Below are positions 29,593 through 62,859 of a DNA stretch of 64,000 nt, piece by piece. The notes beneath the pieces were generated by a model. It did not search any database and was not told the DNA's origin. It saw only the letters and a list, made by a program, of their open reading frames with translations. The translations under genes and the position numbers were made by a program. Position 1 is the stretch's first letter, and each line of letters opens with the position of its first letter. The stretch is from an uncultured Bacilli bacterium (GTDB lineage: Bacteria; Bacillota_I; Bacilli_A; RF39; UBA660). Where the stretch lies: NCBI GenBank assembly GCA_944363785.1, contig CALVVF010000007.1:1-64000 (forward strand), given 5' to 3'.

Positions 29593-29622
29593 GAAAAAAA
29601 CTACTATTCAACCGAACAGTAG
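29593..29622 (-). terminator. terminator of pilin copy 2
   Basis: CTACTGTTC and GAATAGTAG pair (one mismatch-type wobble) around GGTT, followed by T7 on the minus strand. Confidence 0.8.
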
Positions 29623-29645
29623 CTTCTTTTTTTATACTAAATTAA

Positions 29646-30245: not shown

Positions 30246-30365
30246 ATAAAATTCACTCCTCTCTATTTTTACTACACCAGTATATCACACCGTAAAATGT
30301 ACCGTCAATAATATTTCCCAGCATTTTCCAACTTGACATCTGCATTGTAAAGAGCATTTTCAAAA

Positions 30366-30393
30366 GAAAAAAACTATTGATAAAATCAATAGT
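30366..30393 (-). terminator. terminator of pilin copy 3
   Basis: ACTATTGAT and ATCAATAGT form a perfect 9-bp stem with a T7 run on the minus strand. Confidence 0.85.
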
Positions 30394-30410
30394 CTAAATC
30401 ATCATACCTC

Positions 30411-31004: not shown

Positions 31005-31091
31005 GTAAAATCTCCTCTCTCCTATTATTACAATATCATCATAGCACATCCCCATTTTTTCGTCAATAATTTTACAGCCAGTTAACATCTT

Positions 31092-31124
31092 AAAAAAAAT
31101 ACTTCTCTAAATATTTAGAGAAGT
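31092..31124 (-). terminator. terminator of pilin copy 4
   Basis: A perfect 12-bp palindromic hairpin (31101-31124) is followed by A-T8 on the minus strand. Confidence 0.9.
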
Positions 31125-31143
31125 AAAAGGAAAAGGAAGAATT

Positions 31144-31650
31144 CTATTCACTACAAACACGAATACTTCCATTTACTCCAGTAATAGATTTTATTTGATC
31201 ATCAGATAACGAAGTGACATCATTATCTACATAAGTAAGACGATCATCATCATCCAATTTTTCCTTTTGCGTCAAAGTAATTCCACGACTTGTCCCACCA
31301 TTAGTAACTCCCATTAGATGAACATAATAAACAAGAGTATCATTCTTACGAACGACAGCTACAAAAGAATTATCTTCATCATAGGGATTACCATCTGGAT
31401 CTTTAGCCAAATCTTCATTGTCAACACAAGCCAAATTAATTCGTACAATTTCGTTACTAGTTGGCTTAGAAACCTTATTTCCTATCTCGTATTCAGCTAA
31501 AGATAAAAACTTCTTTGCATCCGCAATATAAGTATCTTTTTTGCTCTTATCTAAGGAAGAAATAACATTCGGAACCGCAATAGTCAAGATAATCGCTAAA
31601 ATTACAATAACCGCTAAAAGCTCTACTAACGTAAATCCATTCTTCTTCAT
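31144..31650 (-). CDS. type IV pilin-like protein, copy 4
   Basis: 168 aa, the shortest copy. Prepilin signal MKKNGFTLVELLAVIVIL, helix to about residue 30, then a globular domain with Cys (NLACVDNED) and a C-terminal VCSE, which could form the terminal disulphide seen in ComGC/PilA-type pilins. First gene of the array in the direction of transcription. Confidence 0.9.
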   Translation of the reverse strand: MKKNGFTLVELLAVIVILAIILTIAVPNVISSLDKSKKDTYIADAKKFLSLAEYEIGNKVSKPTSNEIVRINLACVDNEDLAKDPDGNPYDEDNSFVAVVRKNDTLVYYVHLMGVTNGGTSRGITLTQKEKLDDDDRLTYVDNDVTSLSDDQIKSITGVNGSIRVCSE

Positions 31651-40362: not shown

Positions 40363-40371
40363 ATTATACCA
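40363..40371 (-). promoter_or_regulatory. extended -10 promoter at the ICE/rbgA junction
   Basis: TGGTATAAT on the minus strand (-10 hexamer 40363-40368) overlaps the recombinase stop codon and points at rbgA 48 bases away. No good -35 is present, but TGn-extended -10 elements can do without one. Confidence 0.5.
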
Positions 40372-41956
40372 TATTATTTTTACTTTTAAGATATTTAAGT
40401 GTATCTTCATATTGATCTTTATATAAAAAAGAAATTTCAACTTCATCTTTGTCGCCAACATAAATGTTATCGATAAATTCATTAATAATACTTCTAGTTA
40501 TATTAGTAAACTTTTTTTGATGTTTTAATTTTTTTATCCAATCCAGATTATTTTGCGTAAATTTGCTTGATTCTATTTTTTCTTTTTCTTGTTTTAATTT
40601 GTTGGTTTCATATAAATAATCATTTTTAAATTCCTCAAAATCCTCTTGTGAAATTATATCATTTTGATAATCCTTAATTAAATCACTTAACAAATTTTCA
40701 TACTGAGATATTTGTTTATTGATCTCTACTATTTTTATTTTTTTTACTTCCTCATTATAATCAATTCTTGAATACGAAACAATTTCATCAATGCGTTTAT
40801 CAATATCACATATAAGTTCAATATATTGATTTATAGCATTTAATACAATATTATCTAATTTTCTTTCTGTTATATGATGTTTACTACACTGTTTTGTTTT
40901 TAAATATGTACTGCAATAATAAAATGCTTGCAATTTTCCTCTTTTTGTTCTAGTTATCCTGTAAAGACTTTTACCACAATCAGAGCATTTTAAGAAACCA
41001 GAGTATGTATGATAAGAACCATTTTTATTTGCTTTAACATTTCTATTATATAAAATGTTTTGAACTTGATAAAAAATATCTTCACGAATTATAGCATCAT
41101 GATGATTTTTAAATACTACCCATTCTCCTTCAGCGACCCTGACGAAGTTATGTGCCTTATGATTAAGTCTTGTTCGCTTTCCTTGTACTAAAGTTCCAAT
41201 ATATGTTTCATTTGTTAAAATAGCATCCAACATATAGATAGTCCATTTTGTACGAGGATTACATACTTCTGCACCAATTCTATCTCTCATATAAATACTT
41301 GGTGTTAATATATGATTATTGTTTAATTCCTCTTTTATTTCTTGTTTACTTTTACCTCTTAATACTAATTCAAAAATTCTCTTAACAACAGTAGCAGCAT
41401 CAGGATCGACTATTATCTTATGACAATCTTTTTCATCTTTAATATATCCATATGGTGCATATTTACCTATAAAATTACCAGCTTTCTTACTTGCTGACAA
41501 TGCGGTTCTAAGTTTTATAGATGAATCTTTAGAGTAATTTTCATTGATTAAATTCTTAAAAGGGATTTCAAGCGAATCCATAAGACGAGGATTATTTAAG
41601 GAATCAACATTATCATTAACAGAAATAAATCTTAATTTATAAGAAGGAACTATCTTATCAATAAAATTACCTACTTGTATATAATTTCTTCCTAATCTTG
41701 ATAAATCCTTAACAATTACTCCACTAATTTTTTTTGTTTCTATATCATTTAACATTTCTTTATATCCAGGTCTATTAAAATCTGTTCCAGTATAACCATC
41801 ATCCACATAACACTTAAAAAGTGTAATGTCCTTTTTATCGTTTAAATAATATTCAATAATTTTTCTTTGATTAACTACACTGTTGGACTGTTCATTATCT
41901 TTACCTTTTTCATCAGCTGACAGTCTCAGATACACTCCAAACTTCCATTTTTTCAC
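40364..41956 (-). CDS. large serine recombinase, second copy
   Basis: 530 aa. Serine resolvase catalytic domain with GVYLRLSADE (catalytic Ser) and GVIVKDLSRLGRN, recombinase domain with TNETYIGTLVQGK, a zinc ribbon (CSDCGKS...C...C) and a C-terminal coiled coil. It integrates or excises the element. GTG start after GGAGG. It overlaps the first recombinase by 44 bases, so the two are coupled, and it ends right at the host junction. Confidence 0.95.
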   Translation of the reverse strand: MKKWKFGVYLRLSADEKGKDNEQSNSVVNQRKIIEYYLNDKKDITLFKCYVDDGYTGTDFNRPGYKEMLNDIETKKISGVIVKDLSRLGRNYIQVGNFIDKIVPSYKLRFISVNDNVDSLNNPRLMDSLEIPFKNLINENYSKDSSIKLRTALSASKKAGNFIGKYAPYGYIKDEKDCHKIIVDPDAATVVKRIFELVLRGKSKQEIKEELNNNHILTPSIYMRDRIGAEVCNPRTKWTIYMLDAILTNETYIGTLVQGKRTRLNHKAHNFVRVAEGEWVVFKNHHDAIIREDIFYQVQNILYNRNVKANKNGSYHTYSGFLKCSDCGKSLYRITRTKRGKLQAFYYCSTYLKTKQCSKHHITERKLDNIVLNAINQYIELICDIDKRIDEIVSYSRIDYNEEVKKIKIVEINKQISQYENLLSDLIKDYQNDIISQEDFEEFKNDYLYETNKLKQEKEKIESSKFTQNNLDWIKKLKHQKKFTNITRSIINEFIDNIYVGDKDEVEISFLYKDQYEDTLKYLKSKNNMV

Positions 41957-43622
41957 GATTATTTACTACCTCCTTTTCTAAAAATGCTAATAATTGTTCA
42001 TACTCATCATGATATTTAAATATAACTTCAACTTTACAATCACTAAAAACTATTATTTTTTCAATTAAATCTTCGACAACACTTCTAGTCAATTTTTTAA
42101 TTTTTTTATTTCTTTTATAATGTTCAATCCAATAATCATCTTTCTTTAACATCTTAACAGTTTCTTTATAAGTAGAAGTATAAAGTTCTATATTACTATT
42201 TAAAAGTTCAATCTTTTGATTATACTCTTCATACAGTTTTGAAAACTCGGATTTATCAATCCTATTGAACTTCCAATCTTTATATATTTCTTTTTTCTTT
42301 TCTTTTAAAGCATTTATTTTAATTTCTGCTATTTGTATACTTTCCTTATATTCTTTTTCCAACTTGTTTTTATCATTTTTAAAATATAACTTTGATATGC
42401 TCTTATCTAATTCTATTACAAGTTTTATTTGAAGCTTTACTGCCTCTAATATCACATTTTCTAATAAATCAGTTTTTATCTTATGTGAACTGCAATTATT
42501 GTGTCTTGACAAGTAACTCAAACAAAAATAATTAGAACAATTTCTATTTCCTCTAAAGTCATCTTGTTTAACCATTGCACCACCACAATCAGAACATTTA
42601 ATAATGCCTCTAAATAAAGACATATTTAATGGTTTAGAATGTGCTTTTTCATTTAATTTGATTTGTTCTTGGACTTTTTCAAAATCTTCTTTTGAGATTA
42701 TTGCTTCATGTGTTTTTTCGCATCTAACCCAATCCTCTTTTTTTACATTGATAGCTTTTTTACTTCCAAATTCTTTTCTCTTTGTCTTCAATTGTACTAA
42801 ATTGCCAATGTATGTCTCATTAGTTAAAATTCTACCTATCGTGGTAGTTCCCCAATAATATCTAGATTCAAGTGAAAATGGCTCCAAACTTAAATTTGCT
42901 TTTTTTCTTCTACTTATTTCCTTTCGGCACAATATTCCTTGCGAATTTAAATACTTACAGATTTTAATCCTGCCATCTCCTTCTAATGCCATTTTAAAAA
43001 TCTCTCGAATTATTTTTGCTTCTTTTTCATCAATTACTAGATGGTGCTTATCATTTGGATCCAAAGCATATCCATAGGGTGTTGTACCAGCAACAAATTG
43101 CCTATTTCTAGCCATTGAATCATAAGCACTAGCAACCTTTTTTGAAAGGTCTCTTGAAACACCTTCATTAACTAAATTTTTAATCGGAACATTTAAACTT
43201 CTTATAGACTCTGGATTGTTAAATGAATCAACATCATCATTTACAGCAATTATTCTAATGCTATGTAATGGAAATATTTCTTCTATATATTTTCCAACTT
43301 CTAAATGATTCCTTCCTAATCTTGATAAATCTTTAACAATAATCCCATTAACTTTTCCAGATAAAACATCATTCATAAGTCGTTTAAAATTTGGTCTATT
43401 GAAATTTGTTCCAGTATAACCATCATCCACATAATAATCTACTATTTCAATATTTTCAGATAGCTTTTCTAAGTGTGCTTCAATTAAATGTTTTTGATTA
43501 ATTATAGTATTAGATTCTGTATCATCACCATCATCGAATGATCTTCTGGTATAGACACCAAATAGCCATTTACGATTTTTTAATTCTTCTCTACTGAGCT
43601 TTTTTCTGCCTCTACCAGCCAC
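41913..43622 (-). CDS. large serine recombinase, first copy
   Basis: 569 aa. Same layout: GVYTRRSFDD (catalytic Ser), GIIVKDLSRLGRN, TNETYIGNLVQLK, zinc ribbon CSDCGGA...C, coiled coil. The paralogues are diverged; the basic N-terminus (MAGRGRKKLSREELKNRK) is unique to this copy. GTG start after GGAGGTGA. Confidence 0.95.
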   Translation of the reverse strand: MAGRGRKKLSREELKNRKWLFGVYTRRSFDDGDDTESNTIINQKHLIEAHLEKLSENIEIVDYYVDDGYTGTNFNRPNFKRLMNDVLSGKVNGIIVKDLSRLGRNHLEVGKYIEEIFPLHSIRIIAVNDDVDSFNNPESIRSLNVPIKNLVNEGVSRDLSKKVASAYDSMARNRQFVAGTTPYGYALDPNDKHHLVIDEKEAKIIREIFKMALEGDGRIKICKYLNSQGILCRKEISRRKKANLSLEPFSLESRYYWGTTTIGRILTNETYIGNLVQLKTKRKEFGSKKAINVKKEDWVRCEKTHEAIISKEDFEKVQEQIKLNEKAHSKPLNMSLFRGIIKCSDCGGAMVKQDDFRGNRNCSNYFCLSYLSRHNNCSSHKIKTDLLENVILEAVKLQIKLVIELDKSISKLYFKNDKNKLEKEYKESIQIAEIKINALKEKKKEIYKDWKFNRIDKSEFSKLYEEYNQKIELLNSNIELYTSTYKETVKMLKKDDYWIEHYKRNKKIKKLTRSVVEDLIEKIIVFSDCKVEVIFKYHDEYEQLLAFLEKEVVNNREKMEVWSVSETVS

Positions 43623-46923: not shown

Positions 46924-47514
46924 TTAAAATCTGGAAATTTTTCCAGTTTTTTTCTTAATCTTAGATAATAATTGGTAAATATCCTCTTTTAATTTAAATT
47001 GTATAACATATTGACCTTTCTTATAGGTTTTTTTATTTGAAATATTGTACGGATCTACGTCTGTTATACTTTTTTCTGTTATTCTATATTGTCTGGAATC
47101 AAATAAACTATCCATATAAATTGTACCTTGTATCATAGAATACGCTATAATAGGACGATTCTTTTGGGAAACAATGTAATCTATCAAATCAAGTTCTTCT
47201 GGAGTTAGTGTGTCTAACACATTATGTATGTATTCAATATTTTGTTCTTCCAACTCTCGATTATATTTGTTTTGCTCAATTGTCATATTTAATCTATTTA
47301 TTATTTTTTTACAAAAATAAATAAATATTTCGATAATAAATAAAATTAAACAAAATAACGAAAATAAATACAAATTTTTACCTAGCTTTACGATAATATC
47401 TAAATCATATGGAGTTTTATAATATATCAATGCAGTTAAAACCACAGACAACAACGAAGGAAGAAAATGTTTTTCTATAAATTCTTTTACTATATCAACA
47501 ATCTTTTCAACCAT
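46924..47514 (-). CDS. two-helix membrane protein coupled to hsdS (SieB-like)
   Basis: 196 aa. Two membrane helices (about 16-32 and 45-70), then a cytosolic part with LTPEELDLIDYIVSQKNR and GTIYMDSLFDSRQYRI. Topology resembles superinfection-exclusion (SieB) proteins, which stop phage development from the inner membrane; the family match is by eye only. Its start overlaps hsdS by eight bases, so it is part of the restriction operon. An anti-phage accessory role is plausible. Confidence 0.55.
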   Translation of the reverse strand: MVEKIVDIVKEFIEKHFLPSLLSVVLTALIYYKTPYDLDIIVKLGKNLYLFSLFCLILFIIEIFIYFCKKIINRLNMTIEQNKYNRELEEQNIEYIHNVLDTLTPEELDLIDYIVSQKNRPIIAYSMIQGTIYMDSLFDSRQYRITEKSITDVDPYNISNKKTYKKGQYVIQFKLKEDIYQLLSKIKKKTGKISRF

Positions 47515-48973
47515 TATAATTTTCCTTAACTAAGTTTTCAATTTCATCACAAAGTGGTAAAAGAAGTTCTAATTTATCTACAATACGTTGTTGTTCCTCT
47601 AGTGAAGGTAAAGGAATGTACATTTCCATAACATGCTCAAGTTTCAAATTAGATTGAGCAGATCCCCCTCCTTTGCTTGATACGGTATTATGAAAGTAGA
47701 AAGAATTGATTACATAATAAAGATACCTTGAAAAATCATAATTGATTGGAATAAGTTTCAAAACTCGCTGATTTAATAAAGCATAATCTTCGTACTCATA
47801 TATTGCAGTTTTTCCTAATGGTTCAGGATTATCAGACTGTGATGACAAACACATTAAGAAATCCCCTTTATTAATTTTTGATTTTAACATTTTAGGAGTC
47901 GGATTTTCAACAAATACTGTTTTACTATTAATTTCAACAAACTTTTTCATTATATTTTGACTTTTGATTACAGGGTATCCTTTACCACTTTTAGATGTTT
48001 CGGACGGCTTGTATGAATAACCATTTTGGTAATCAAATAACATACCCAACTTTACCCATTTCCAATTTGATGGTATTTGAAATGGATACTCTTCTTTATT
48101 AATTGTTAAATTAAACTTTTTATAATTATTTTTTAATTTTATTTTTTCAGGTATAATTCTATCAATATCCGAATCATTAATATCTTGCTGTGATAATTTA
48201 CCATGGATAGCATAATCGATAATTGATCTTTTCATATTTTCTGGAAACTTGCTTTTTAAAATTTGAAGTTCTTCCTCTATTGGTTTTATTTCATCCAACT
48301 TTGCAAATAATTCTTCTATTTTATCTACAATACGTTGTTGTTCTTCTAATGGTGGAAGTGGTAATATTGTATTTTTAATTGCATCTAATACCCAATTTTT
48401 ATTTCCTACGCCACGAGTATTATCTTTTACTTGCTTTTGAACAATAGGAGATAATAAAAAGTAATACAAAAATTTGTTATTAATTTTAGTTTTATTAAAT
48501 TTTAATAAAGCCACACTAACAAACAAGCTAAATTCTTCATAACAATCTACAATTGCTGGAACACCAGTAGTACCAACTTTTGATATTAGAATATCACCAT
48601 ATTCAGGATTACATCTCGCATATAATTTTTCATGTTCTTCTTTTTCTATAAACTTAGTGTTTTCAAACTTAATTTTTCCACTACTAATATCTTTAACTGA
48701 TAAAAATGGAATTCCTCCCAATGAATACTTTGGAGTACTATGCGTTCCATCAGTTATTTTTGTGCAAATATCTTCCAATTTTACCCATACCCATGATTTT
48801 GGTATATTAAAAGGATAATCAATAATTCCAACATATTTATATCTTTTATTTTCCTTCTTATCACTTAGTATTTTAATTAATTCTTGATAAGCATCTTCAT
48901 TTTCTTTTTGTTCTACCAATTTTCCTTCAGTAGATAGATTTAAGATTGCATTTTTTAACTCATCAACTATCAT
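47507..48973 (-). CDS. hsdS: type I restriction enzyme specificity subunit
   Basis: 488 aa. Two target-recognition domains (about 50-200 and 290-450), each followed by a conserved helix (LPPLEEQQRIVDKIEELF and LPSLEEQQRIVDKLELLL). It chooses the DNA sequence methylated and cut. The two conserved ends share a 24-bp identical direct repeat. It overlaps hsdM by four bases (ATGA). Confidence 0.95.
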   Translation of the reverse strand: MIVDELKNAILNLSTEGKLVEQKENEDAYQELIKILSDKKENKRYKYVGIIDYPFNIPKSWVWVKLEDICTKITDGTHSTPKYSLGGIPFLSVKDISSGKIKFENTKFIEKEEHEKLYARCNPEYGDILISKVGTTGVPAIVDCYEEFSLFVSVALLKFNKTKINNKFLYYFLLSPIVQKQVKDNTRGVGNKNWVLDAIKNTILPLPPLEEQQRIVDKIEELFAKLDEIKPIEEELQILKSKFPENMKRSIIDYAIHGKLSQQDINDSDIDRIIPEKIKLKNNYKKFNLTINKEEYPFQIPSNWKWVKLGMLFDYQNGYSYKPSETSKSGKGYPVIKSQNIMKKFVEINSKTVFVENPTPKMLKSKINKGDFLMCLSSQSDNPEPLGKTAIYEYEDYALLNQRVLKLIPINYDFSRYLYYVINSFYFHNTVSSKGGGSAQSNLKLEHVMEMYIPLPSLEEQQRIVDKLELLLPLCDEIENLVKENYNG

Positions 48974-50457
48974 TTTAAGTCACCTATTTGTTCAATAATT
49001 TTCTTCAACTTATCATCTAACTGTTTTTCCAATTTTTCTCTCTTTGTAATAAAATTTTCCATTGTTTCTTGTGGGGATAGTATTATTTCTTCTTTTTTTG
49101 GATAACCGCATTGATCTAAATTATAGTTTAATTCAATAATATCTTCAATTGAATATCTTTTAGCCTTCCATGTTTCAGTTAGTGATTCGTCTTCCTTTTT
49201 GTCCTTTATTTCTATTCTATTATTCCACCAATTAATTACATTATTAAAATGTTTTAATTCAACAGGTTTTGTTTTACTAAATGCTTTATATCCTTCAGGT
49301 AAATCCATTCTATAAAACCACATTTCTTTAGTAGGTCCTGTTTTGTCAAAAAATAATAGATTAGTTGCAATCGAAGTATATGGTGCAAAAATTGAACCAG
49401 GCAATCTTATAATAGTGTGCAGATTACATTCCTCTAATAATTTCTTCTTAATTGCTACTTTTGTATTATCTACTCCAAATAAAAATCCATCTGGTAAAAC
49501 TATTCCTACTCGCCCACTGTCCTTCAATCGATAAAGAATCTCAATCATAAATAAATCAGCAGTTTCCGAATCTCTCAACTCAGTGGGAAAATTTTGCTGT
49601 ATAGACTTTTTTTCTGTTCCACCATAAGGAGGATTCATTAATATAACATCAAACTTGTCTTTTTCTTCATAATCTCTAACATTTTTTTCTAAGGAGTTTC
49701 CTCTAATGATTTGAGGCTCATTTATGTCATGCAACAACATATTTGTTGTACACAATAAATAAGGAAGAGATTTTTTTTCAACACCATAAAAGGAATGTTG
49801 CAATGTTTCATTGCTTGCAGTATTATTAACTGTTTCTTTCATATGATTAAGTGCAGAAACTAAAAAACCACCAGTTCCACATGCAAAATCAGCAACACTT
49901 TCTCCTATTTTAGGATCAACCATTTTAACAACAAAATCTGTAACAGCCCTAGGAGTATAAAACTCTCCAGATTTTCCTGCTGATTGCAAATCTTTCAAAA
50001 TAGTTTCATATATCTCATTAAACGCATGTCTTACTTTAAAGTCTGTCAAATCGATTTCATTTAATACATTTACAACCTGTCTAATTAAAACTCCATCTTT
50101 CATGTAGTTATTCAAATCAGTAAACACTTCTTTAACTAATCTACCTCTAACATCAGTATTTTCATCTACCTCAAGTTCTTTTAAGGTAGCAAATAATTGA
50201 ATTATAAACGAAGACATTTCTTCTCCGGTTATAGCTTTTCCATCTTTGCTATCTGGTGCCCAATTTCTCCATCTATATTCCTCTGGTATAATAGATTTAT
50301 AATTATCTTCAAGAATTTCCCATTCCATTTCTTTAGCGTCATATAATTTAAGAAATAACATCCATACAATCTGTTCAATTCTTTGAGCATCGCCATTAAC
50401 GCCAGCGTCTTGTCGCATAATATCTTGAAGTCTTTTTATCATTGTTCCTATATTCAT
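48970..50457 (-). CDS. hsdM: type I restriction enzyme methyltransferase subunit
   Basis: 495 aa. N6-adenine methyltransferase: FACGTGGFLVSA (SAM site) and NPPYGG (catalytic). The N-terminal helical domain (GVNGDAQRIEQIVWMLFLK) and LPGSIFAPYTSIATNLLF are also diagnostic. It forms M2S1 with HsdS and can act alone as a methylase. Confidence 0.96.
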   Translation of the reverse strand: MNIGTMIKRLQDIMRQDAGVNGDAQRIEQIVWMLFLKLYDAKEMEWEILEDNYKSIIPEEYRWRNWAPDSKDGKAITGEEMSSFIIQLFATLKELEVDENTDVRGRLVKEVFTDLNNYMKDGVLIRQVVNVLNEIDLTDFKVRHAFNEIYETILKDLQSAGKSGEFYTPRAVTDFVVKMVDPKIGESVADFACGTGGFLVSALNHMKETVNNTASNETLQHSFYGVEKKSLPYLLCTTNMLLHDINEPQIIRGNSLEKNVRDYEEKDKFDVILMNPPYGGTEKKSIQQNFPTELRDSETADLFMIEILYRLKDSGRVGIVLPDGFLFGVDNTKVAIKKKLLEECNLHTIIRLPGSIFAPYTSIATNLLFFDKTGPTKEMWFYRMDLPEGYKAFSKTKPVELKHFNNVINWWNNRIEIKDKKEDESLTETWKAKRYSIEDIIELNYNLDQCGYPKKEEIILSPQETMENFITKREKLEKQLDDKLKKIIEQIGDLK

Positions 50458-50466
50458 TTTAACCTC

Positions 50467-52785
50467 CTAGCTATACAAAGCTTTCTCAATGTTAGAGATA
50501 ACATTAAGGTATTTATCTTTTCCACCAAATAAATTAACGATAGGAACTAGTCCTCCGAATTTATTAAAATTTTTCACTTCTAAAGTCCTTATATTTTCTA
50601 ATTCTAAAACATCCTGATTTTTATATGTCTCTAACAATTCATTAATTACACTCTTTTGTGAATCATTGTATTCATTTATAAGATTACTGTTTTTCACTTT
50701 CTCAATTCTATCTTCTTTGGATACAACTTCTACACCATAAGCCATATTAGACAAAATATCAAATATATCTATATTGTCATTTGCTTTATCATATAAAGCA
50801 TCAATCATTACGCCTTCATTAAACAAATGATTTAAAAAATCTTTCTTAGAATCTGCTCTATACCATTCTTGTTCAAAATCTTCATATCTTTCATAAACTC
50901 TTTTTAAATTTCTACCAGAATATTCTACTATAGATTCAGTTATTAATCTTCCATCAGCATCATAGTATTTTACAGTTTCATTTATGATAGATACAGGGAC
51001 ATTATTTATATAAACTTTTTTAGATTGTCCATCTTCAACATCTCCACTTATCGGAGGCTTAATTGTTGTATCAGTTATCCCAAAATCTTTTCCTGTCTTT
51101 GGTTCTTGACCATTTCCTCCATCTACATCTAAAACCACTTCTGCAGGTCCATTAAAATTAGGATCAGCAAACTTTTCTGAATTATTTCTAAAGTCCATTA
51201 TTGTAAAATATTCTTTGCCTTTATTTGGAAGAAGTCTTGTCCCTCTACCTATAATTTGTTTAAATTCAGTCATACTTTGAATTTCTACATCTAATACTAT
51301 CAATTTTACTGTCTTAGTATCAACACCTGTAGATAATAATTTTGAAGTCGTTGCAATTACAGGATATATTGTATTTGAATCAATAAAGTCATCAAGTTTT
51401 GCTTTACCAACAACGTCATTACTAGTAATTCTAACGACATAGTTTGGATTTAATTGCATTAAGTCTCTATTTTCTTCAGCTAAAGCGTTTCTCATTCTTA
51501 AAGCATGTTCTGTGTCGACACAGAAAACAATAGCTCTTGCCATTCTATCTGTTGATTTCATATATTCAGCAATTCTTTTAGCAACTACTTTTGTTCTTTC
51601 ATCAATAACGATTGTTCTGTCAAAGTCGTGCATTGTGTATTCTTTATCTTCAACTTCATAGCCATCCTCATCTAGCTTTCCTCTTTCAGGCCTATAACCT
51701 TCCAAGTCTCTATCCAAACTAACTCTAACAACTTTATAAGGTGCAAGGAATCCATCCTCTATACCTTGTTTTAAAGAATATGTATAAATAGGTTCCCCAA
51801 AATAAGTTATATTTGAAACATCTACTGTTTCCTTTGGTGTAGCTGTCATACCAATTTGAGTCGCATCACTAAAATAAGTTAATATCTCATGCCAGTTAGA
51901 ATCATCTTTAGCACTGCTTCTATGACACTCATCAACAATAATCAAATCAAAAAAGTCGGGTTTAAATTGCTTATATACTTCTTCTTCATTATTTCTTAAT
52001 TGATGATACAATGACATATAAATTTCGTAAGAAGAATCCATATTTCTATGTTCAATTTTAGTCATAACCTTTTGAAACGGTTTAAAATCATTCTGCATTG
52101 TTTGATCTATCAAAACATTTCTATCAGCTAAATACAAAATTTTTTTCATCTTCCCAGATTTATGTAGTCTATGTATTATTTGAAATGCGGTAAATGTCTT
52201 ACCTGTTCCAGTAGCCATAACCAGCAATATTCTCTTTTGCCCTTTAGAAATGGCTTCTATTGTTTTGTTAATTGCTATTCTTTGATAATATCGTGGGGTT
52301 TTATTTATATCCATAAAATAATATGGTTCTGTGATTAATGACTCCTGCTCCGGAGTAATTTCTTTTTCTTTTAAATATCTTTCCCATAGTTGTTTAGGAG
52401 TCGGAAATTCTTCCAATTTAAGTTCTCTTTCTTCACCAGTAATCATATCATGTTCAAAAAATCCATCACCATTTGATGAATAAGCAAATGGAATATCTAA
52501 ATCGTAAGCATAATCCATTCCTTGCTGTATTCCATGAGATATTGGTACTTTATTATCTTTTGCTTCAACTATTGCAATAGGCAAATTAGATTTATAAGAT
52601 AAAAGATAATCAACTTTCTTTCCTTTACCTCTTTGAGCAACATTTTCCCTTACATTTATTTTTCCAGCAGTATAATAATATTCGCATCGAATTTGGTTTT
52701 TTATATCCCAATCTGCTGCTTGTAATGCCGGAGTAATATATTTTAATTTTATATCTTCTTCTGTTAATTCTTTTTTATTTAACAT
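50467..52785 (-). CDS. hsdR: type I restriction enzyme R subunit
   Basis: 772 aa. N-terminal nuclease motif IVEAKDNK (PD-ExK type), Walker A MATGTGKTF, DECH box, TATP motif, C-terminal helicase domain and a tail binding HsdMS. It translocates DNA and cuts it after meeting another complex. Shorter than EcoR124-type HsdR (about 1,000 aa), matching the short helicase-nuclease group. Confidence 0.94.
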   Translation of the reverse strand: MLNKKELTEEDIKLKYITPALQAADWDIKNQIRCEYYYTAGKINVRENVAQRGKGKKVDYLLSYKSNLPIAIVEAKDNKVPISHGIQQGMDYAYDLDIPFAYSSNGDGFFEHDMITGEERELKLEEFPTPKQLWERYLKEKEITPEQESLITEPYYFMDINKTPRYYQRIAINKTIEAISKGQKRILLVMATGTGKTFTAFQIIHRLHKSGKMKKILYLADRNVLIDQTMQNDFKPFQKVMTKIEHRNMDSSYEIYMSLYHQLRNNEEEVYKQFKPDFFDLIIVDECHRSSAKDDSNWHEILTYFSDATQIGMTATPKETVDVSNITYFGEPIYTYSLKQGIEDGFLAPYKVVRVSLDRDLEGYRPERGKLDEDGYEVEDKEYTMHDFDRTIVIDERTKVVAKRIAEYMKSTDRMARAIVFCVDTEHALRMRNALAEENRDLMQLNPNYVVRITSNDVVGKAKLDDFIDSNTIYPVIATTSKLLSTGVDTKTVKLIVLDVEIQSMTEFKQIIGRGTRLLPNKGKEYFTIMDFRNNSEKFADPNFNGPAEVVLDVDGGNGQEPKTGKDFGITDTTIKPPISGDVEDGQSKKVYINNVPVSIINETVKYYDADGRLITESIVEYSGRNLKRVYERYEDFEQEWYRADSKKDFLNHLFNEGVMIDALYDKANDNIDIFDILSNMAYGVEVVSKEDRIEKVKNSNLINEYNDSQKSVINELLETYKNQDVLELENIRTLEVKNFNKFGGLVPIVNLFGGKDKYLNVISNIEKALYS

Positions 52786-52821
52786 AAAACAACACCACTC
52801 TTTAAGAACACATTTTTAATA

Positions 52822-52830
52822 ATTATACCA
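52822..52830 (-). promoter_or_regulatory. extended -10 promoter of hsdR
   Basis: TGGTATAAT on the minus strand (hexamer 52822-52827), about 37 bases before hsdR, placed after the terminator of the upstream operon. Confidence 0.5.
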
Positions 52831-52859
52831 TAAATAAACGATTTCCACTATAGCTCATA

Positions 52860-52915
52860 AACAAAAAAAGAAGTTTTAAATCTCTTATATTGCAATTAAT
52901 TATAAACTTCTTTTT
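52860..52915 (-). terminator. terminator of the SWIM-macro-GmrSD operon
   Basis: AAAAAGAAGTTT (52865-52876) and AAACTTCTTTTT (52904-52915) form a 12-bp stem with a 27-base loop and a T run on the minus strand. It covers the stop of the nuclease gene. Confidence 0.75.
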
Positions 52916-54995
52916 CAGATTCTAATTTTATTAAATCAAAATCAAAATATTTTTTCATCATATCTATAAATTTATTTGTATCATTTTTTAAACAAATTGT
53001 CCTTACATATACTGATAAATTATTACAGTCTAATTTTGTATAAGTATATTCTTCATTATTTTCATTTTTAATTAGTTCATGTGAATACATTTTAAAATCT
53101 CTTATTTCCTTTGGAATAGAATAATAATCTTTTATATTATTGGCATTTATATAATCCTTTAAAATACTTAAAACTAGACCCTTGTTTGTTAAATATTCAT
53201 TATTATATTGCCATTTATGTAATGAATTAGCTTTTTGTTCTTCTTCTATAATTTTATCTATATCATCTTCAGATATATCTAACATATTTTCTATTAATCC
53301 AATTAAATATTTTTGTCTATCAACTATATGAGAAACATCCCAATCAACATCACCTTTATTATAATTATCAATTATTGTTTTTGTTGTATCAAAAGCTGTT
53401 ACACCTGACTCATTTTTATCTTTTCCTTGATAAATATTCATCTTTACATTCATACCATGATTCAATGCCTCTTCATTTTTACTTCCAAGAAGTAAAGCCA
53501 AATTTCCTAATTTATGAATGTATGTTTTAGCTAAAGCAACATCATCAATATTCTTCCATTCATCTAATCTTTTATCAAATTGTTGTGGTAATATATGGTC
53601 GATATGGATTGAATTATTAATCTTATAAAATCCAACATTGGTTTTTTCTCTGATTTCATACTCAATAGACAACATTAAAGCTTTCAAAAAATTTTGGCCA
53701 TAAACATCATCATTCAAATTTTGATAAACATCTCTTATTAATCTTTTTCCATAAATAAACTTATCAAGCATCTCATTTATTTCATCAATAGTTTTTTTGT
53801 CGACTATCGCATCGATTAAATTGAAAGACGTTTGTTTTATTCCATTTAACGTTTTGCCAGAAATCCATGAAATATAGAAAAATCTTCTCATAGATTGAAA
53901 CAATTCTTCTTTATCTGGATAATCAACTTGATATGCACTCGCTAAAGCAGTCATAACATATGCTTGCCATGGGATATATCTTAAACTATATATTACAGGC
54001 AATGTAGATTTATATACCTTTTCTAAATTATCAGCAAAAGACTTCATCTCATCAACTAAAGATACCACTTCAGATGATTGAATAATCTTTTTTAATTCGT
54101 CTGTAACTTGTCTTTTAGGATTACTTTTAAGTTTATAATATTCAAAATAAACCATGAAATCATCAATTGTAAATTCATAATCATTACTTATTTTTTCAAT
54201 AGATTTCCAGTTATAATTGAATGTTGCTTTATCATTTTCATTATATCTATCATTTGAATCGTATTTATCAAGTATATATGATTTAATAATATCAGAAATA
54301 GAAAGTTCTAAACCTCTATCATTTAAAACTAAAAATAATTTAATGGCAAACGATTGATTTGTACATATCGTTTTTATAATATTAGTTTTAAATAAAATGA
54401 AATTGACAAAACCATCTAAAACGGATTGACCTTCGGATTTTAACAACTCATTAAATTTATCATAGAAAAATTTTGCAGTATTTACAAACTTATACTCAGG
54501 ATCATCTTTTTTCAAATTAGCTTGAGTAGGATATTTAAAATTTTCATAATTATCTTGATTTATTATTGCTTTTTTAAATGAAGTATTGTAATTAGGATCT
54601 ATCTGCAATTGCAATCTATTAATTCCTTCATCAAAATAAATTAATTGCTTAATTTTTTGCAAATTACCTTTTAATAAAATATCAGAGTTTTTATTAATAT
54701 CAGGGAATGTTTTAGCTAATACATTTAACATTATCATCAATGTTGTTATTCTCTGCTGACCATCAACTAATTCATGGTGTCCTTTACCATCATCAACTAC
54801 TACTATCGATCCCAAAAAATAACATTCCTCAGGAGTATTAATGTATGATTCGTATAAATCGCTCCACAATTCTTCTAATTGTTCATTCACCCAACTATAC
54901 TGTCTTTGATAATTTGGAATAACATATATTGCTTGGCAAGAAAATAAATCACTTATAGTTTGATTCTCTGGTTTAAATGTTTGATTGTTGTTCAT
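52896..54995 (-). CDS. GmrSD-type DUF262/DUF1524 nuclease
   Basis: About 699 aa. N-terminal DUF262 domain with IPNYQRQYSW and the DGQQRITT nucleotide motif (about 20-90); a central helical part; C-terminal DUF1524 HNH-like domain with HIDHILPQQF and HKLGNLALLLGS (about 470-520); a further tail of about 150 aa. GmrSD proteins are type IV restriction enzymes that cut modified (for example glucosylated) phage DNA. Both catalytic blocks are intact. The ATG at 54995 lies nine bases after GGATGG and overlaps the macro gene's end. Confidence 0.9.
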   Translation of the reverse strand: MNNNQTFKPENQTISDLFSCQAIYVIPNYQRQYSWVNEQLEELWSDLYESYINTPEECYFLGSIVVVDDGKGHHELVDGQQRITTLMIMLNVLAKTFPDINKNSDILLKGNLQKIKQLIYFDEGINRLQLQIDPNYNTSFKKAIINQDNYENFKYPTQANLKKDDPEYKFVNTAKFFYDKFNELLKSEGQSVLDGFVNFILFKTNIIKTICTNQSFAIKLFLVLNDRGLELSISDIIKSYILDKYDSNDRYNENDKATFNYNWKSIEKISNDYEFTIDDFMVYFEYYKLKSNPKRQVTDELKKIIQSSEVVSLVDEMKSFADNLEKVYKSTLPVIYSLRYIPWQAYVMTALASAYQVDYPDKEELFQSMRRFFYISWISGKTLNGIKQTSFNLIDAIVDKKTIDEINEMLDKFIYGKRLIRDVYQNLNDDVYGQNFLKALMLSIEYEIREKTNVGFYKINNSIHIDHILPQQFDKRLDEWKNIDDVALAKTYIHKLGNLALLLGSKNEEALNHGMNVKMNIYQGKDKNESGVTAFDTTKTIIDNYNKGDVDWDVSHIVDRQKYLIGLIENMLDISEDDIDKIIEEEQKANSLHKWQYNNEYLTNKGLVLSILKDYINANNIKDYYSIPKEIRDFKMYSHELIKNENNEEYTYTKLDCNNLSVYVRTICLKNDTNKFIDMMKKYFDFDLIKLESEKEVYN

Positions 54996-54999
54996 ATTA

Positions 55000-55743
55000 C
55001 TAATCCATCCTTTCAATTAATATTTTAATTTGTTCTTTTGTTACTTCAAAATTTTCTAAAGTATATTGTAAACAAATAAGTTTTTCTGATAAACACAAAT
55101 CATCTAATTCTTTATTTTTTACAAAATTGGCATATTTCTTTTTTATGTCATTTTCAATTAGATTATTTTCATTTAAGTATATAAGTATTTCTTTTGGTAC
55201 CAAATTCATTAAATCCTTTTTTAAATATAGAGCATTTATTTCTAAAAATGGTTTTAAATATATATCTTTATAAATTGGATACAAATTATTGAAATATAAG
55301 TTTACATCATTAATTTTACAAAAATTATTTAAAAGAGATATAAGTGGTTTGGCAATATCTTCATGTTTATATCCATGAACCCCCGTACCCAAACTACAAA
55401 CAAGTACATTTTTGTAACCTTTTTCTATTATAACTTCTAACATTTTTTTGTATGTAAATAACAATTCATCAATTGAATTCCTTGCTTCATAATATTTCGG
55501 AGCTAATACATGGATAATATCCATATTTAAATTAAAACCCGGTGTAACTCTTACCTCTCCTGGTTTCATATCTGTTTTATATATTTGTTTACAGTATTCT
55601 AACAATTTGTTTCCTGCATTTCTATAAATAACTCCACAAATTCCACTACCATTTATCATATATTTATTAGCAGCATTAACAATAGCATCTTTATCTTTAG
55701 AATTTAATATGTAATCTCCACTTAGAAGATATAACTTTCCCAT
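55000..55743 (-). CDS. macro-domain protein
   Basis: About 247 aa. Residues 1-165 form a macro domain: YLLSGDYILNSK, AIVNAANKYMINGSGICGVIY (ADP-ribose loop), GEVRVTPGF and VCSLGTGVHGYKHED. Macro domains bind or hydrolyse ADP-ribose on proteins or nucleic acid. The last 80 residues form a charged helical extension unknown to me. It overlaps the downstream GmrSD gene, and the SWIM gene ends 20 bases upstream, implying a joint function. The ATG at 55743 follows AGGTGG; the GTG at 55752 is inside that site. Confidence 0.88.
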   Translation of the reverse strand: MGKLYLLSGDYILNSKDKDAIVNAANKYMINGSGICGVIYRNAGNKLLEYCKQIYKTDMKPGEVRVTPGFNLNMDIIHVLAPKYYEARNSIDELLFTYKKMLEVIIEKGYKNVLVCSLGTGVHGYKHEDIAKPLISLLNNFCKINDVNLYFNNLYPIYKDIYLKPFLEINALYLKKDLMNLVPKEILIYLNENNLIENDIKKKYANFVKNKELDDLCLSEKLICLQYTLENFEVTKEQIKILIERMD

Positions 55744-55763
55744 AATTACCACCTACAATTTTA

Positions 55764-56795
55764 CTATTTATTATCCAAAAAATATTTTACCTGTTTTGTT
55801 AATTTCTCATCTTCAGAATCCTCTAATATTTCCCAGTTATATTTATCATTTTTATCTAATATAGGAATTAATTCAAGTTCTCCATAATTATTGATTATTT
55901 CAAAATTCTGTTCAACGATTCCTAAACATAACAAATATTCAAAATCTATAATTCTCTCAAGTAAATTCTTATTAGGATTTTTATACATTATTTTATAAAA
56001 TCTATTACCTTTATTATTCCTAATAGCAAGAATAACAGCGTAAATATGTTTACAATAAAACTCACATGGACAAGTACAATACACTTGCATTTTTTTATCT
56101 TTTTCAATGTACTTTATTATTACAACATATTTTTCAGAACCATTTACAATGGCAAAATATCTGTCATCTATTTTCTCTAAAAATTCAACTCTATCTTCCT
56201 CGTAATATTTTTTTCCTCTTTCAACAATTTGAAAACGAAACAATTTATCAATATCACCATTAAACAAATCAAAATCAAACTCTTCTTTATATTCATACAT
56301 TTCTGTACTTCCAGTTAGCTTTGCTAAAATTTTATATAGAAAAACTTCATATGTTCTCGGCATATTTCTAAAAATAAATATAAATAAATCTGTTAAATTG
56401 GCTAAACATTTAGGCATATATTTTTTAAAAGATATGCTAATATTATCAGAATCTTTTGTTTTAATATTGGCATTAAAAATAACAACATCTTTATCAGTCA
56501 AAAACTCATCAATGTAATGAGCATCAACTTTATAATCTGAATAAGTATTCTCAATAAGATGTATAACTTTACTGTCGATGTATTGGCATGATAGATATTT
56601 TTCAATACTTTTATCTTTTATATCATCTAAATCAAACCAACTAAGTTTATAAGTTCCATATTTTTTTGATTTGGTTATAATCATATATAAATTATATCCT
56701 GAATAATTTAATAACTCTAATTCTAAAAAAACTTTATCTTTTTTGTAATATTTTTTGATTAGAGATATTTTTTCATTATCTTTAATAGACTTCAT
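55764..56795 (-). CDS. SWIM zinc-finger protein
   Basis: 343 aa. A SWIM motif (MQVYCTCPCEFYCKHIYAV, C-x-C...C-x-H) lies at about residue 240, after a beta-rich region (YFAIVNGSEKYVVIIKYIEKD). The N-terminal 200 residues resemble no family known to me. SWIM fingers bind DNA or protein and occur with SNF2 helicases and transposases. First gene of the macro-GmrSD operon, so it may be the sensor or regulator of that set. Confidence 0.8.
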   Translation of the reverse strand: MKSIKDNEKISLIKKYYKKDKVFLELELLNYSGYNLYMIITKSKKYGTYKLSWFDLDDIKDKSIEKYLSCQYIDSKVIHLIENTYSDYKVDAHYIDEFLTDKDVVIFNANIKTKDSDNISISFKKYMPKCLANLTDLFIFIFRNMPRTYEVFLYKILAKLTGSTEMYEYKEEFDFDLFNGDIDKLFRFQIVERGKKYYEEDRVEFLEKIDDRYFAIVNGSEKYVVIIKYIEKDKKMQVYCTCPCEFYCKHIYAVILAIRNNKGNRFYKIMYKNPNKNLLERIIDFEYLLCLGIVEQNFEIINNYGELELIPILDKNDKYNWEILEDSEDEKLTKQVKYFLDNK

Positions 56796-56817
56796 TACTC
56801 CATCTCCATATATACAA

Positions 56818-56826
56818 ATTATACCA
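56818..56826 (-). promoter_or_regulatory. extended -10 promoter of the SWIM operon
   Basis: TGGTATAAT on the minus strand (hexamer 56818-56823), about 25 bases before the ATG and just after the terminator of the polymerase operon. Confidence 0.55.
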
Positions 56827-56827
56827 T

Positions 56828-56861
56828 GAAAAAAGCGAATCTAAAATAATCTGATTCACTT
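56828..56861 (-). terminator. terminator of the polymerase-YolD operon
   Basis: AAGTGAATC and GATTCGCTT form a 9-bp stem (one G-U), 11-base loop, then T6 on the minus strand. Confidence 0.75.
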
Positions 56862-56902
56862 TATATAATTATAATTTATATTAAGTACAACAATTATAAA
56901 AT

Positions 56903-57349
56903 TCATTCATTATTTTTCTCATTATCTAATAAAATTTTATTAAAATCACTTTGCCAGGTGATACTAATAATATCATCAAAGTAAACGTTTGTATTGTCAG
57001 CAAAAATAAGACATTTATTAAAATTGTCAACCTTTTTAATTATACTCGTTAACGACTTATATATACCACCACTCTTTTTATTATCTCGAACAAAATATTT
57101 AATTGTAATTTCTGGATGGACTTTTATATTATTCTTTATAAAATTTATTTTTTGATTTAAATCATTTTTTAATTCATCACTCAGTTCTACCTTTGTTTCG
57201 GTTAACCTTGCAGTTTCCTCTATTGCATCATCATAACCTGTTAATGCAGCAAAAGGTGCAAACTGTGCTGCTCTATTATATAAACTCATCGGCTTTCTTG
57301 TTTTAGAAACATGATGTGGCAAATCAATAATATCGTCATATTTATTCAT
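56903..57349 (-). CDS. YolD-like protein
   Basis: 148 aa. [23 protein letters not shown] is the YolD-like signature; the C-terminal half carries a beta-rich fold. YolD-type proteins accompany Y-family polymerases of the UvrX type in Bacilli and mobile elements and are thought to be accessory or regulatory. It overlaps the polymerase by eight bases. GGAGGACATC precedes the ATG. Confidence 0.85.
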
Positions 57350-58927: not shown

Positions 58928-60529
58928 TTAACTAGCCAAGTTAGCTTGAAAATACACAAATTGCGAACTATTTTTCCAATTATATGTATTCCAAACATCT
59001 ATATTATCCGTACTAGGATCAACCATTTTAATTTCATTACCAACAACATTCATCACTGCAACCCAATGCTGACCTGTATCTCCTAACACTTCCATAGCTA
59101 TATAATATCCCTGTTCTTGATATGTTTTTATTAGTTTTAATTTTTCATTTTTACTTTTTCCAGCTAAAGTTACTCTACCTTTATATTGAAAATTAGGAAT
59201 TATTTTCGTAATGGCAGCATATTGTAAATTACCATTATTATCAAATCCATTATTGTTATTTAAATTTTCAACAAAAATACCAGGATTAAAAGGGAGTATT
59301 GTATTATTAACATTAGATTTTTGTATTAAAATTGCCACAGATGTAACTAGACAACCAATATCACTAATTGTTTTCCCTGAATTACCAATTTGTATATTTG
59401 ACCAACTTGCATTTTTCTGCCTCCAGTAAATATAATCTCCTGTTTCAGAGCCATACAATAGATGACTCCACATATCATCATATTCTGAACTAGTTAATTC
59501 TTTAACTTGTTCTTTTTGGTCATCACTAAAACTATAATTATTCATGATTTCTTCTAAAGATTTTGATGTGACTTTTACATATAATATAGTTTTTCCCTGC
59601 CCATTAACTGGATTATTATTAAATTCTGGTGGACTACTTTCATTTGCATTTTCTTCATTTCTAACTTCAGTAATGATTGTATTAAAATCATAAAAAACAG
59701 TCTTTAATCTTCTAACGTTTTTATCGTCTAAATACATTACAATCTCAGCATCTTCCGAATTATCATTAGCATATTTTACAGAATAAACCGCAATTACTTC
59801 TTTCCAATTAGAATAGGTTGATTCAAAAACTATTTCATCTGCTTGTGATAAAAGCCTTTGTGATTCTACATTTCTATAAACCTCTTGATTAATCTCACTA
59901 ATAACACTAGTCATAGTTCTACTATTTGAATCATTGGAAAAAAAGATACCAAAAATTGAACCTAATAAGGCGGCAATTAGACATATAACAATAATTACTA
60001 TCATCACAATTGCTCCACCGCTTGCCAATAAGCCAATAAGCGAGCTTAAAGCACTTATTAATGCTTTAACTCCTAAAATAACACCTTTGAATATAGCCAT
60101 TACTGCTCTTCGTGTAGTTCTTGCCATACTTATGGCTAGTCTTTTAGCTTGAATAGCCATTTGTTTACTTCGTTGTGCTGCCTTTTTTGTATTATTCATT
60201 ATATTTTTAGCATTAGCTACCTTTGTTTTAATTTTACTTGTACCAGCAGTATTCTTTATATTTCGTCTTTTAATTTTATTTATTAAACTAGTTTTTCCTT
60301 TGTTTACTAGTTTACCAGCTCCATGGATTGTCTCATCTTTAATTCTGTTACTATAATATTTTATTTTGTCTGATCCATATTCATTTATATTATTATTGTT
60401 TGAATTTATTTCGTTTGATTTATCATTTAGATAAACAATAGGATCTTTAATTCTCTCAGTCCACGCACTAGCTTTATTAAGCGTTTTAATTCCCTTACGA
60501 GAACTATCTTTTGTTTTTATGTCTTTCAC
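58928..60529 (-). CDS. conjugation membrane protein with C39-like peptidase domain
   Basis: 533 aa. A basic N-terminal cytosolic part (1-150), one or two hydrophobic helices (about 160-200), an extracytoplasmic middle, and a C-terminal cysteine-peptidase domain (about 365-533) with SDIGCLVTSVAI (Cys), HWVAVMNV (His) and MVDPS (Asp). This looks like C39_2 rather than the NlpC/P60 or CHAP wall hydrolase typical of ICEs. It probably opens the wall or processes a peptide during conjugation. GTG start, coupled to virB4. Confidence 0.75.
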   Translation of the reverse strand: MKDIKTKDSSRKGIKTLNKASAWTERIKDPIVYLNDKSNEINSNNNNINEYGSDKIKYYSNRIKDETIHGAGKLVNKGKTSLINKIKRRNIKNTAGTSKIKTKVANAKNIMNNTKKAAQRSKQMAIQAKRLAISMARTTRRAVMAIFKGVILGVKALISALSSLIGLLASGGAIVMIVIIVICLIAALLGSIFGIFFSNDSNSRTMTSVISEINQEVYRNVESQRLLSQADEIVFESTYSNWKEVIAVYSVKYANDNSEDAEIVMYLDDKNVRRLKTVFYDFNTIITEVRNEENANESSPPEFNNNPVNGQGKTILYVKVTSKSLEEIMNNYSFSDDQKEQVKELTSSEYDDMWSHLLYGSETGDYIYWRQKNASWSNIQIGNSGKTISDIGCLVTSVAILIQKSNVNNTILPFNPGIFVENLNNNNGFDNNGNLQYAAITKIIPNFQYKGRVTLAGKSKNEKLKLIKTYQEQGYYIAMEVLGDTGQHWVAVMNVVGNEIKMVDPSTDNIDVWNTYNWKNSSQFVYFQANLAS

Positions 60530-62859
60530 TATTCTTCCCCTGGTTTAGTAGTCATCAATTTATATAATTCTAAATCATGAGGGAAATGATTTTCAAATGG
60601 TACTAGATTACGTCCTACTTTTAAAAGTCCTTCACCTGCTCCAACATTAGTTATATAACTTAATTGTAACTCTGAAATATTTAATAATTTCGCTAATTCA
60701 AGACGATCAGTTGAGGCTTGATTTAACATAACAATAAATTCAGAGTTTGCAAGCATAGTTTTTGCAGTATGAGACTGTAATAAATCTTCCACATTTTGTG
60801 TAATCCCTGTAGCATAAGCTCCATATTTTCTAACACGTTTCCATAAAGTAAATAAGAAATTAGCAGAATATTCATGTTGAAATAATAAATATATTTCATC
60901 TATGAAAATATATGTACTTCTTCCTTTATTTCTATTAGCTGTAATTCTATTTAAAATACTATCTAAAACAACAAGCATACCTATAGGAAGTAATTGTTTT
61001 CCTAAATCTAAGATATCATAACATATAATACGATTATTTGTATCAACATTAGTATTTTTAGCAAATGTATTTAAAGATCCATCTGTAAACAATTCGATAG
61101 CAAGGGCAATTTGCTTTGCCTCTTCCTCTGGTTGTTTTAATAATTCTTCTCTAAAGTCTTGTAAAGTTGGTGGAACACCTTGATAATTTCCCTGTTGGTA
61201 CACTCTATAAACTTTGGCAGTACATCTATCTATAATTGATTTTTCTTTTGGGCCTAAAGACTTTTCACCCATTAAATGTTCACACAAAGATAAAATAAAT
61301 TCAGACTTTAATATTACAGGATTCGCACCATCACCATATTCACTATTTAAATCCATTGCATTTATATGATTTTCACTTGTAGCAGATATATGAATTACTT
61401 CTCCACCTAATGCTTTTACCAACCTGCTTTCTTCTCGCTCTGGATCAACAATAATGATATCTGCTGTAGGATCACGTAATGCAATAGAAACTATTTCATT
61501 TTTTGCAGTAAAAGACTTACCACTTCCACTAACACCTAATATAAAAGAATTACCATTTAGTAGTTGTCTTCTATCTGCAATTATCATATTTTTAGATATA
61601 ACATTTAAACCATAATATATTCCATTTTCATGATTAATTTCTTGTACTCTAAATGGTGTAAAAACAGCTAATGATTCAGTTGTTAATGTTCTTAATGTAT
61701 TTATTTTTCTTACTCCATAAGGTAAAACCGTATTTAATCCATCCATTTGTTGATACTTTAATACCGCTAACTGACACAAATGTTTTCTAGCAGTAGATAA
61801 TAAAGATTCTGTATCTAGATTTAATTGTTCTAAAGTCTTAGCAGTATGAACCATAGTAATAACGCATACAAACATTCTTTGGTCTCTCGTAGTAAGATCA
61901 TCTAGAAATTCTTTCGATTCTTTTCTTTGTTGCTCCAAATCATAAGGAATAACAGCACTAAAATTGTTATTGTTATTTTGTCTGCGTTGCCAATTAGTAA
62001 TATTAGTTTCTACACCTAATCTTCTGTTTTCCACCTCACGTATCGCTTCATCCATGGGGATTGGTATTATATCAATAGATAGAAGCATACTTCTATCCAT
62101 ATCTGTCAATTCTGCAACCATATCATCTTTTATATAATTAGCATACTCTTTCAAGTATAATACACGTCCATATCTATTTCCATATTCGAAATAATCTTTT
62201 TCAAAAGATAAAGAATCTGAACATATATAATCTTTAAAGGAATGCCCTTTTCTCATATTGTCTATCATATCAAAATTAAAAATAGATTCCTCTCCCACTC
62301 TATAAAAATCGTGTATTACTCTTAATCTTTCATTTGCACTTAATGATTCGACTTTTGAACCGAGTTCACGAAAACGATTATTTAATTCAGCAGAAATCCG
62401 AGTAAAATATTGTCTAGCCTCATCTAGACTATTTTTATTTATAGATATAGTAAGAAATTTCTCTTGAACCATTGAATTAGAATTTGTTGCCTGCTCAATT
62501 AACATCCTATTATATTCATCACGGTACTTGTCTAAATTATCATTCGCTTTTGGCAATAATATATTCTTCTCAAAATCTACTTTATTTAATCTTCTATTTA
62601 GAATTGTTATTTTTGACGTCGCACTAGAATCAAGTGAATTTAATAATTCAGAATAATTTAAAAACATTGCTTCTTTATCATTTCTAGAAGCAACTGCATA
62701 ATTAATATCAGTAAATCTATAAGTTTTACTATATTTATCTTTACCTAATAAAAAAATACCATCTTTCCATATTCTATTTACTGGTATGGTATCTTGAATA
62801 CTTTTAGGTATATTAAATTCTTCTTTATCTCTTTTAAATAGATTCCTTATCGTTTTCAT
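60529..62859 (-). CDS. VirB4-family conjugation ATPase
   Basis: 776 aa. An N-terminal TraE/ConE-like domain is followed by a RecA-like ATPase with Walker A GVSGSGKSFTAK (about 445), Walker B TYIFIDEIYLLF and TGITQNVEDLL. It drives the type IV secretion apparatus at the membrane. It overlaps the prgI gene by 26 bases. Confidence 0.94.
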   Translation of the reverse strand: MKTIRNLFKRDKEEFNIPKSIQDTIPVNRIWKDGIFLLGKDKYSKTYRFTDINYAVASRNDKEAMFLNYSELLNSLDSSATSKITILNRRLNKVDFEKNILLPKANDNLDKYRDEYNRMLIEQATNSNSMVQEKFLTISINKNSLDEARQYFTRISAELNNRFRELGSKVESLSANERLRVIHDFYRVGEESIFNFDMIDNMRKGHSFKDYICSDSLSFEKDYFEYGNRYGRVLYLKEYANYIKDDMVAELTDMDRSMLLSIDIIPIPMDEAIREVENRRLGVETNITNWQRRQNNNNNFSAVIPYDLEQQRKESKEFLDDLTTRDQRMFVCVITMVHTAKTLEQLNLDTESLLSTARKHLCQLAVLKYQQMDGLNTVLPYGVRKINTLRTLTTESLAVFTPFRVQEINHENGIYYGLNVISKNMIIADRRQLLNGNSFILGVSGSGKSFTAKNEIVSIALRDPTADIIIVDPEREESRLVKALGGEVIHISATSENHINAMDLNSEYGDGANPVILKSEFILSLCEHLMGEKSLGPKEKSIIDRCTAKVYRVYQQGNYQGVPPTLQDFREELLKQPEEEAKQIALAIELFTDGSLNTFAKNTNVDTNNRIICYDILDLGKQLLPIGMLVVLDSILNRITANRNKGRSTYIFIDEIYLLFQHEYSANFLFTLWKRVRKYGAYATGITQNVEDLLQSHTAKTMLANSEFIVMLNQASTDRLELAKLLNISELQLSYITNVGAGEGLLKVGRNLVPFENHFPHDLELYKLMTTKPGEE

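Follow-up and report, generated by a model that had tools for sequence, protein, structure and literature searches.

Three adjacent genes of an uncultured Bacilli bacterium with a small genome, coding for a SWIM zinc-finger protein, a macro-domain protein and a GmrSD-family nuclease, raise the question whether they form one defence system or whether the nuclease works alone and its neighbours are accessories or mere passengers. They lie in the window, i.e., the whole stretch of 64,000 nucleotides analysed here, and an earlier note on this DNA had read them as an operon that either defends against phages ADP-ribosylating host targets or DNA, or encodes a self-regulating nuclease. The best explanation, judged about equally likely to be right or wrong, is an ICE-borne HEC-06-like GmrSD restriction nuclease with optional, apparently transferable SWIM and macro accessories that would tune or trigger it. 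The trio as a unit is narrow; the pairing of a helper with GmrSD is the interesting part.

Table 1. Features of the cassette and of the adjoining restriction operon, in coordinates of the window.
Feature	Position	Strand	Remarks
SWIM zinc-finger protein	55764..56795	-	343 aa
Macro-domain protein	55000..55752	-	250 aa; likely ATG start at 55743
GmrSD-family nuclease	52896..54995	-	699 aa from ATG 54995; listed ORF reaches TTG 55016
Candidate promoter, TTTAGA-16-TATAAT, TG-extended	56818..56845	-	consensus scan; kept in L079
Candidate terminator: A/U-rich 13-bp stem, large loop, then T-run	52862..52916	-	fold z -2.4
EcoAI-family type I RM operon hsdR-hsdM-hsdS with 196-aa protein	46924..52785	-	NF046051 E=0 for HsdR; context, outside the cassette

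The three co-directional open reading frames are intact and lie on the minus strand at the coordinates given earlier (Table 1), and their domain calls are Pfam matches, all above curated cut-offs. The claimed spacing of 20 bases between the SWIM and macro genes likewise agrees with the 20 nt from the SWIM stop to the macro ATG. An overlap of the macro and GmrSD genes, as had also been claimed, arises only from the TTG at 55016; the GmrSD reading frames of several relatives begin at the equivalent of the ATG at 54995 (MNNNQTFKP), which favours a gap of 4 nt instead. The promoter reported at 56818 is present as a site, but promoter-like matches in this AT-rich DNA occur at chance level (46 in the consensus scan vs 43.7 expected by chance). 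Similarly, the terminator placed at 52860-52915 corresponds to a hairpin at ~52862-52916 that folds better than shuffles (-12.3 kcal/mol), whereas a strict scan found no terminator within 52700-57000; the weak A/U-rich hairpin is plausible as the operon terminator. Just upstream of the operon (~56827-56857), a GAATC/GATTC hairpin with a T-run was read from the sequence, which probably insulates the operon from the YolD-like and UmuC genes.

The cassette is cargo of an ICE, which the earlier note had missed. This element spans 40364 to ~64000 and has integrated 5' of ylqF, where two large serine recombinases (40364-43622) adjoin that gene. It further carries a VirB4-type ATPase (60529-62859) as well as a Y-family polymerase (UmuC) and a YolD-like gene; gene names beyond the Pfam-scanned ones were taken from reading the sequences. 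The cassette sits between the UmuC genes and the EcoAI-family hsdRMS operon. A second species (locus L079) holds the same ICE segment, ~98% identical over the cassette. Between these otherwise nearly identical ICE copies, the hsdS products (47507-48973 vs L079:12044-13375) share 31% protein identity, which suggests that the specificity subunit was exchanged. Four consecutive genes in the window's chromosomal part (28938-31650) feature prepilin-type N-termini (GFT.(V/I)ELLAVIVIL).

The GmrSD protein combines GmrSD_N (PF03235, DUF262; 4.2e-33) with GmrSD_C (PF07510, DUF1524; 2e-12). Numbered from the TTG, the DUF262 motif DGQQR occupies residues 85-89, and the HNH of DUF1524 reads DH474ILP ... 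GN505 ... KN514. DGQQR, H474, N505 and N514 are invariant in 14 homologues; neither catalytic motif is disrupted. Among PDB entries, DndI (9jfl, 1.3e-20) gives the best match by sequence. An AlphaFold model was mediocre (62), with BrxU ranking first, without significance, in a fold search; the predicted structure adds nothing beyond the sequence. All three cassette genes are maintained by purifying selection, with dN/dS below 0.3: 0.07 and 0.09 for GmrSD vs L079 and L081, 0.17 and 0.19 for the macro gene vs L079 and L098, and 0.22 and 0.12 for the SWIM gene vs L079 and L081.

Compared with known systems, the cassette shares with HEC-06 (Hma-embedded candidate 6) a single polypeptide bearing DUF262 and HNH, and residues 8-571 match positions 1-556 of 569 of the corresponding PADLOC profile (1.2e-49). 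HEC-06, which has been reported as antiviral and functional alone (PMC12988326; PMC11411939), often occurs alone, whereas the cassette enzyme has SWIM and macro genes upstream and a C-terminal extension of ~110 aa (residues 590-706) outside the profile; the region 586-706 matched no Pfam family. The type IV enzymes GmrSD, BrxU and Eco94GmrSD likewise feature GmrSD_N with DGQQR, GmrSD_C with HNH, and adjoining type I RM genes, but the protein described here is of low sequence similarity, is accompanied by accessory genes and is known from sequence alone. The two-protein TgvAB of V. cholerae, located in a type I RM locus, also joins a GmrSD-like protein to a partner gene. However, TgvA carries DUF262, while the partners in the cassette are SWIM and macro proteins, which are non-obligatory in relatives and match one Pfam family each; neither of them carries DUF262. 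The DUF262 and HNH architecture is moreover shared with DndI and SspE, although the genes inspected around the cassette include none for dnd/ssp phosphorothioation. Finally, DarTG and macro-Thoeris place a macro domain in a defence setting, as here, but the window's genome lacks DarT (no PF14487 match in the whole genome), the cassette protein is MacroD-like with altered catalytic loops and matches the DarG model only at 4.6e-4, and no TIR domain, the ThsB partner, was matched by Pfam among the nine cassette and neighbouring proteins scanned.

Whether the helpers belong to the nuclease was approached through 14 GmrSD loci, collected by a profile search of genome contigs with a GmrSD alignment. 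The full trio occurs only in the window and L079. At locus L081, from genome G001 of the window's genus, the SWIM gene (71% identical) lies directly upstream of GmrSD with neither a macro gene nor a macro remnant. At L080, an intact GmrSD gene (92%, dN/dS 0.06) directly follows what is left of the macro gene, a decayed 3' fragment that corresponds to residues ~197-250 and bears a frameshift and stops, in a genome without an intact close macro gene. The remaining loci have neither a SWIM gene nor a closely related macro gene adjacent and mostly lie by type I RM genes. An HsdR-like gene directly precedes GmrSD in 6 of the 14 loci, and a type I RM setting was seen for the window, L086-L090 and L092, in agreement with the enrichment of GmrSD genes in type I RM loci (PMC4619093).

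Intact GmrSD genes without helpers, together with the one behind the macro remnant, imply that neither helper is obligatory. This bears on another reading: the genes might form an obligate tripartite unit or a toxin-antitoxin system, with the macro and/or SWIM protein restraining a toxic nuclease. Such a design would suit the tight operon with its helpers translated first, and the DUF262-HNH relative DndI, if left unchecked, harms the cell that makes it (PMC11662687). Yet in most of the 14 loci a GmrSD gene of the same subfamily is intact without an adjacent SWIM gene or this macro type, and that of L080 has outlived its macro gene, which leaves this reading highly improbable. For the same reason, the self-regulating or antitoxin role of the macro protein put forward earlier, taken strictly, is contradicted.

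The same observations lend weight to a passive-cargo origin, according to which a stand-alone HEC-06-type GmrSD shares only a promoter with SWIM and macro genes that were shuffled in by ICE and RM islands. Most GmrSD relatives lack both helpers and follow HsdR or HsdM, the SWIM gene is usually a solo chromosomal gene, many macro genes are mobile cargo, and the intact enzyme of L080 stands behind its decayed neighbour. Against this, the SWIM-GmrSD pair of L081 has been retained despite divergence (71%/77%), and both helpers reappear immediately before members of a second subfamily, GmrSD(B), which shares ~25% identity over the N-domain with the window type, GmrSD(A). At L097 (G518), the tailed macro gene (71%) overlaps by 8 nt a GmrSD(B) gene whose 829-aa product has a DUF5655 tail; genes for a methyltransferase and a type IIG enzyme come next. 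At L149 (G767), a SWIM gene (82% identical, truncated by the contig end) lies 25 nt upstream of a GmrSD(B) that is 84.5% identical to that of L097, and genes resembling the methyltransferase/IIG pair again follow downstream. Each helper thus stands immediately before nucleases of two GmrSD subfamilies, and passive cargo is regarded as possible, though somewhat doubtful.

The functional link between helper and GmrSD is supported by these three arrangements, namely SWIM with GmrSD (L081), SWIM with GmrSD(B) (L149) and tailed macro with GmrSD(B) (L097). With regard to co-occurrence elsewhere, on which the earlier note had let its proposal depend, the exact trio recurs only as the near-identical ICE copy, while pairs do recur. 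A recurrence by chance at the genome-wide rate is unlikely; Macro occurs in 92 and GmrSD_N in 178 of 392 sampled genomes of the phylum. A null model based on defence islands is harder to exclude, given the few lineages: the helper-GmrSD pairs stem from ~4 loci, all helper-bearing loci lie in DNA that is mobile or rich in RM genes, a setting in which neighbouring genes are reshuffled, and, since L149 and L097 carry the same GmrSD(B)-methyltransferase-IIG unit, the number of independent partner-swap events may be one. No further GmrSD(B) copies were found in 21 relatives of G518.

Other candidates for the same arrangement were set aside. At L085 (G488), a distant macro gene (~32-35%) and an 80-aa ORF precede GmrSD, which is a weak parallel only; apart from it, no shorter macro relative lies beside GmrSD among the ~40 loci listed. 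Among the matches listed for the 392 phylum genomes, macro-GmrSD adjacency was confined to the window, G252 (L093) and G238 (L094), and the latter two bear a different macro protein of ~320 aa beside an 'RSGSMSG' (vWA-like) protein. In these two other families of the class, the macro/'RSGSMSG' genes adjoin or lie near GmrSD (L093:3704-7606, L094:4008-8956), possibly as a separate macro-GmrSD association. Scans of viral contigs with macro, GmrSD and SWIM alignments revealed no relatives, and a search of a literature library found no paper joining GmrSD with a macro domain and ADP-ribosylation.

The SWIM protein owes its name to a zinc module (Pfam SWIM, 9e-7) with the ligands C240-T-C242...C248-K-H250 (CTCPCEFYCKH), and this CxCxnCxH set is kept in L079 and L081. 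Its N-terminal 180 aa matched no Pfam family, and the AlphaFold model was too poor for use (pLDDT 46). In a sample of 367 genomes of the family, relatives of at least 60% identity are few, including solo copies without GmrSD in L101 and L102 (63-64% identity); a search of plasmids with the SWIM query returned nothing. More remote members of the SWIM family in L020, L022 and L023, located by htpG, have lost the zinc ligands and retained a conserved chromosomal position.

The macro protein is MacroD-like (Pfam Macro 4e-25; PDB profile match to OiMacroD 4e-22). Its ribose-binding NxxN loop is present as NAAN, loop 1 reads NAANKYMINGSGICGVIY and loop 2 SLGTGVHGY. In all four tailed proteins, loop 1 features GSGICG instead of GGGVDG and loop 2 GTGVHGY/GTGIHGY instead of TGVYGY, whereby the MacroD catalytic Asp is replaced by Cys and the Tyr by His; the corresponding residues of OiMacroD, D40 and Y134, were examined by mutation and structure (PMC5413906). 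Because of these replacements, the protein is more likely a reader of ADP-ribose than an eraser. Some viral macro domains strip ADP-ribose from proteins via other key residues (PMC5288732), which leaves hydrolysis by the tailed proteins conceivable. A C-terminal tail of ~85 aa is missing from most relatives, and the region 164-250 matched no Pfam family. Beyond the window, the 367-genome sample contained only two full-length tailed relatives, those of L097 (71%) and L098 (G559, 64%), and tblastn searches of phages and plasmids returned distant macro domains only, none of them tailed.

The macro protein might instead be an independent ADP-ribosyl hydrolase that guards the ICE or its host against ADP-ribosylation, be it by toxins or by enzymes of phages, and has nothing to do with the nuclease. 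Mobile DNA in the family often carries macro genes, and the tailed macro gene of L098, which occurs without GmrSD, is found near an ADP-ribosylglycohydrolase gene (L098:3882-7154). The exchanged Asp and Tyr, the missing DarT and the pairing of the macro gene with GmrSD in two settings speak against this role, which is considered unlikely. The defence suggested in the earlier note, aimed at phages that ADP-ribosylate host targets or DNA, likewise finds no backing, nor does ADP-ribosylated DNA as the target, as there is no DarT in the genome, the MacroD residues are replaced and the operon contains no ADP-ribosyltransferase. The hsdR gene of L098 is 92% identical to that of the window. Short macro genes of the GSGVCG type (L074, L110, L112, L114 and L115) recur near a conserved HTH gene with variable neighbours, in some of these loci also with a small serine recombinase, a pattern reminiscent of cargo slots in a small integrative element.

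In the favoured model of a restriction nuclease with optional accessories, the effector would be the HEC-06-like GmrSD, whose DUF262 NTPase/sensor half would control the HNH DNase half. Judging from its family and context, the most likely task of the enzyme is to restrict modified DNA that arrives with phages or MGEs and to complement the adjacent type I RM system. The SWIM and tailed macro proteins would be optional partners, encoded upstream, through which GmrSD nucleases are tuned or triggered. The zinc module of the former probably binds nucleic acid or protein, and the latter would act as a reader binding ADP-ribose or a related nucleotide. Physical coupling, ligand and type of DNA attacked are inferred, not observed. 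A bolder version, in which SWIM and tailed macro form an interchangeable sensor layer and the nuclease is licensed by the macro protein once this has read a signal derived from NAD or an ADP-ribosylated target arising from infection, appears improbable; if it were true, ADP-ribose chemistry would gate type IV restriction.

Restriction nucleases of the GmrSD type are widespread, but little is known of how they are regulated. Should the helpers be inert, the cassette would be an example of how shuffling by mobile elements mimics a multi-gene defence system. With two unrelated accessory genes upstream of distantly related GmrSDs, modular control of type IV restriction can be tested on a concrete case, and recognition of ADP-ribose is possibly linked to DNA restriction.
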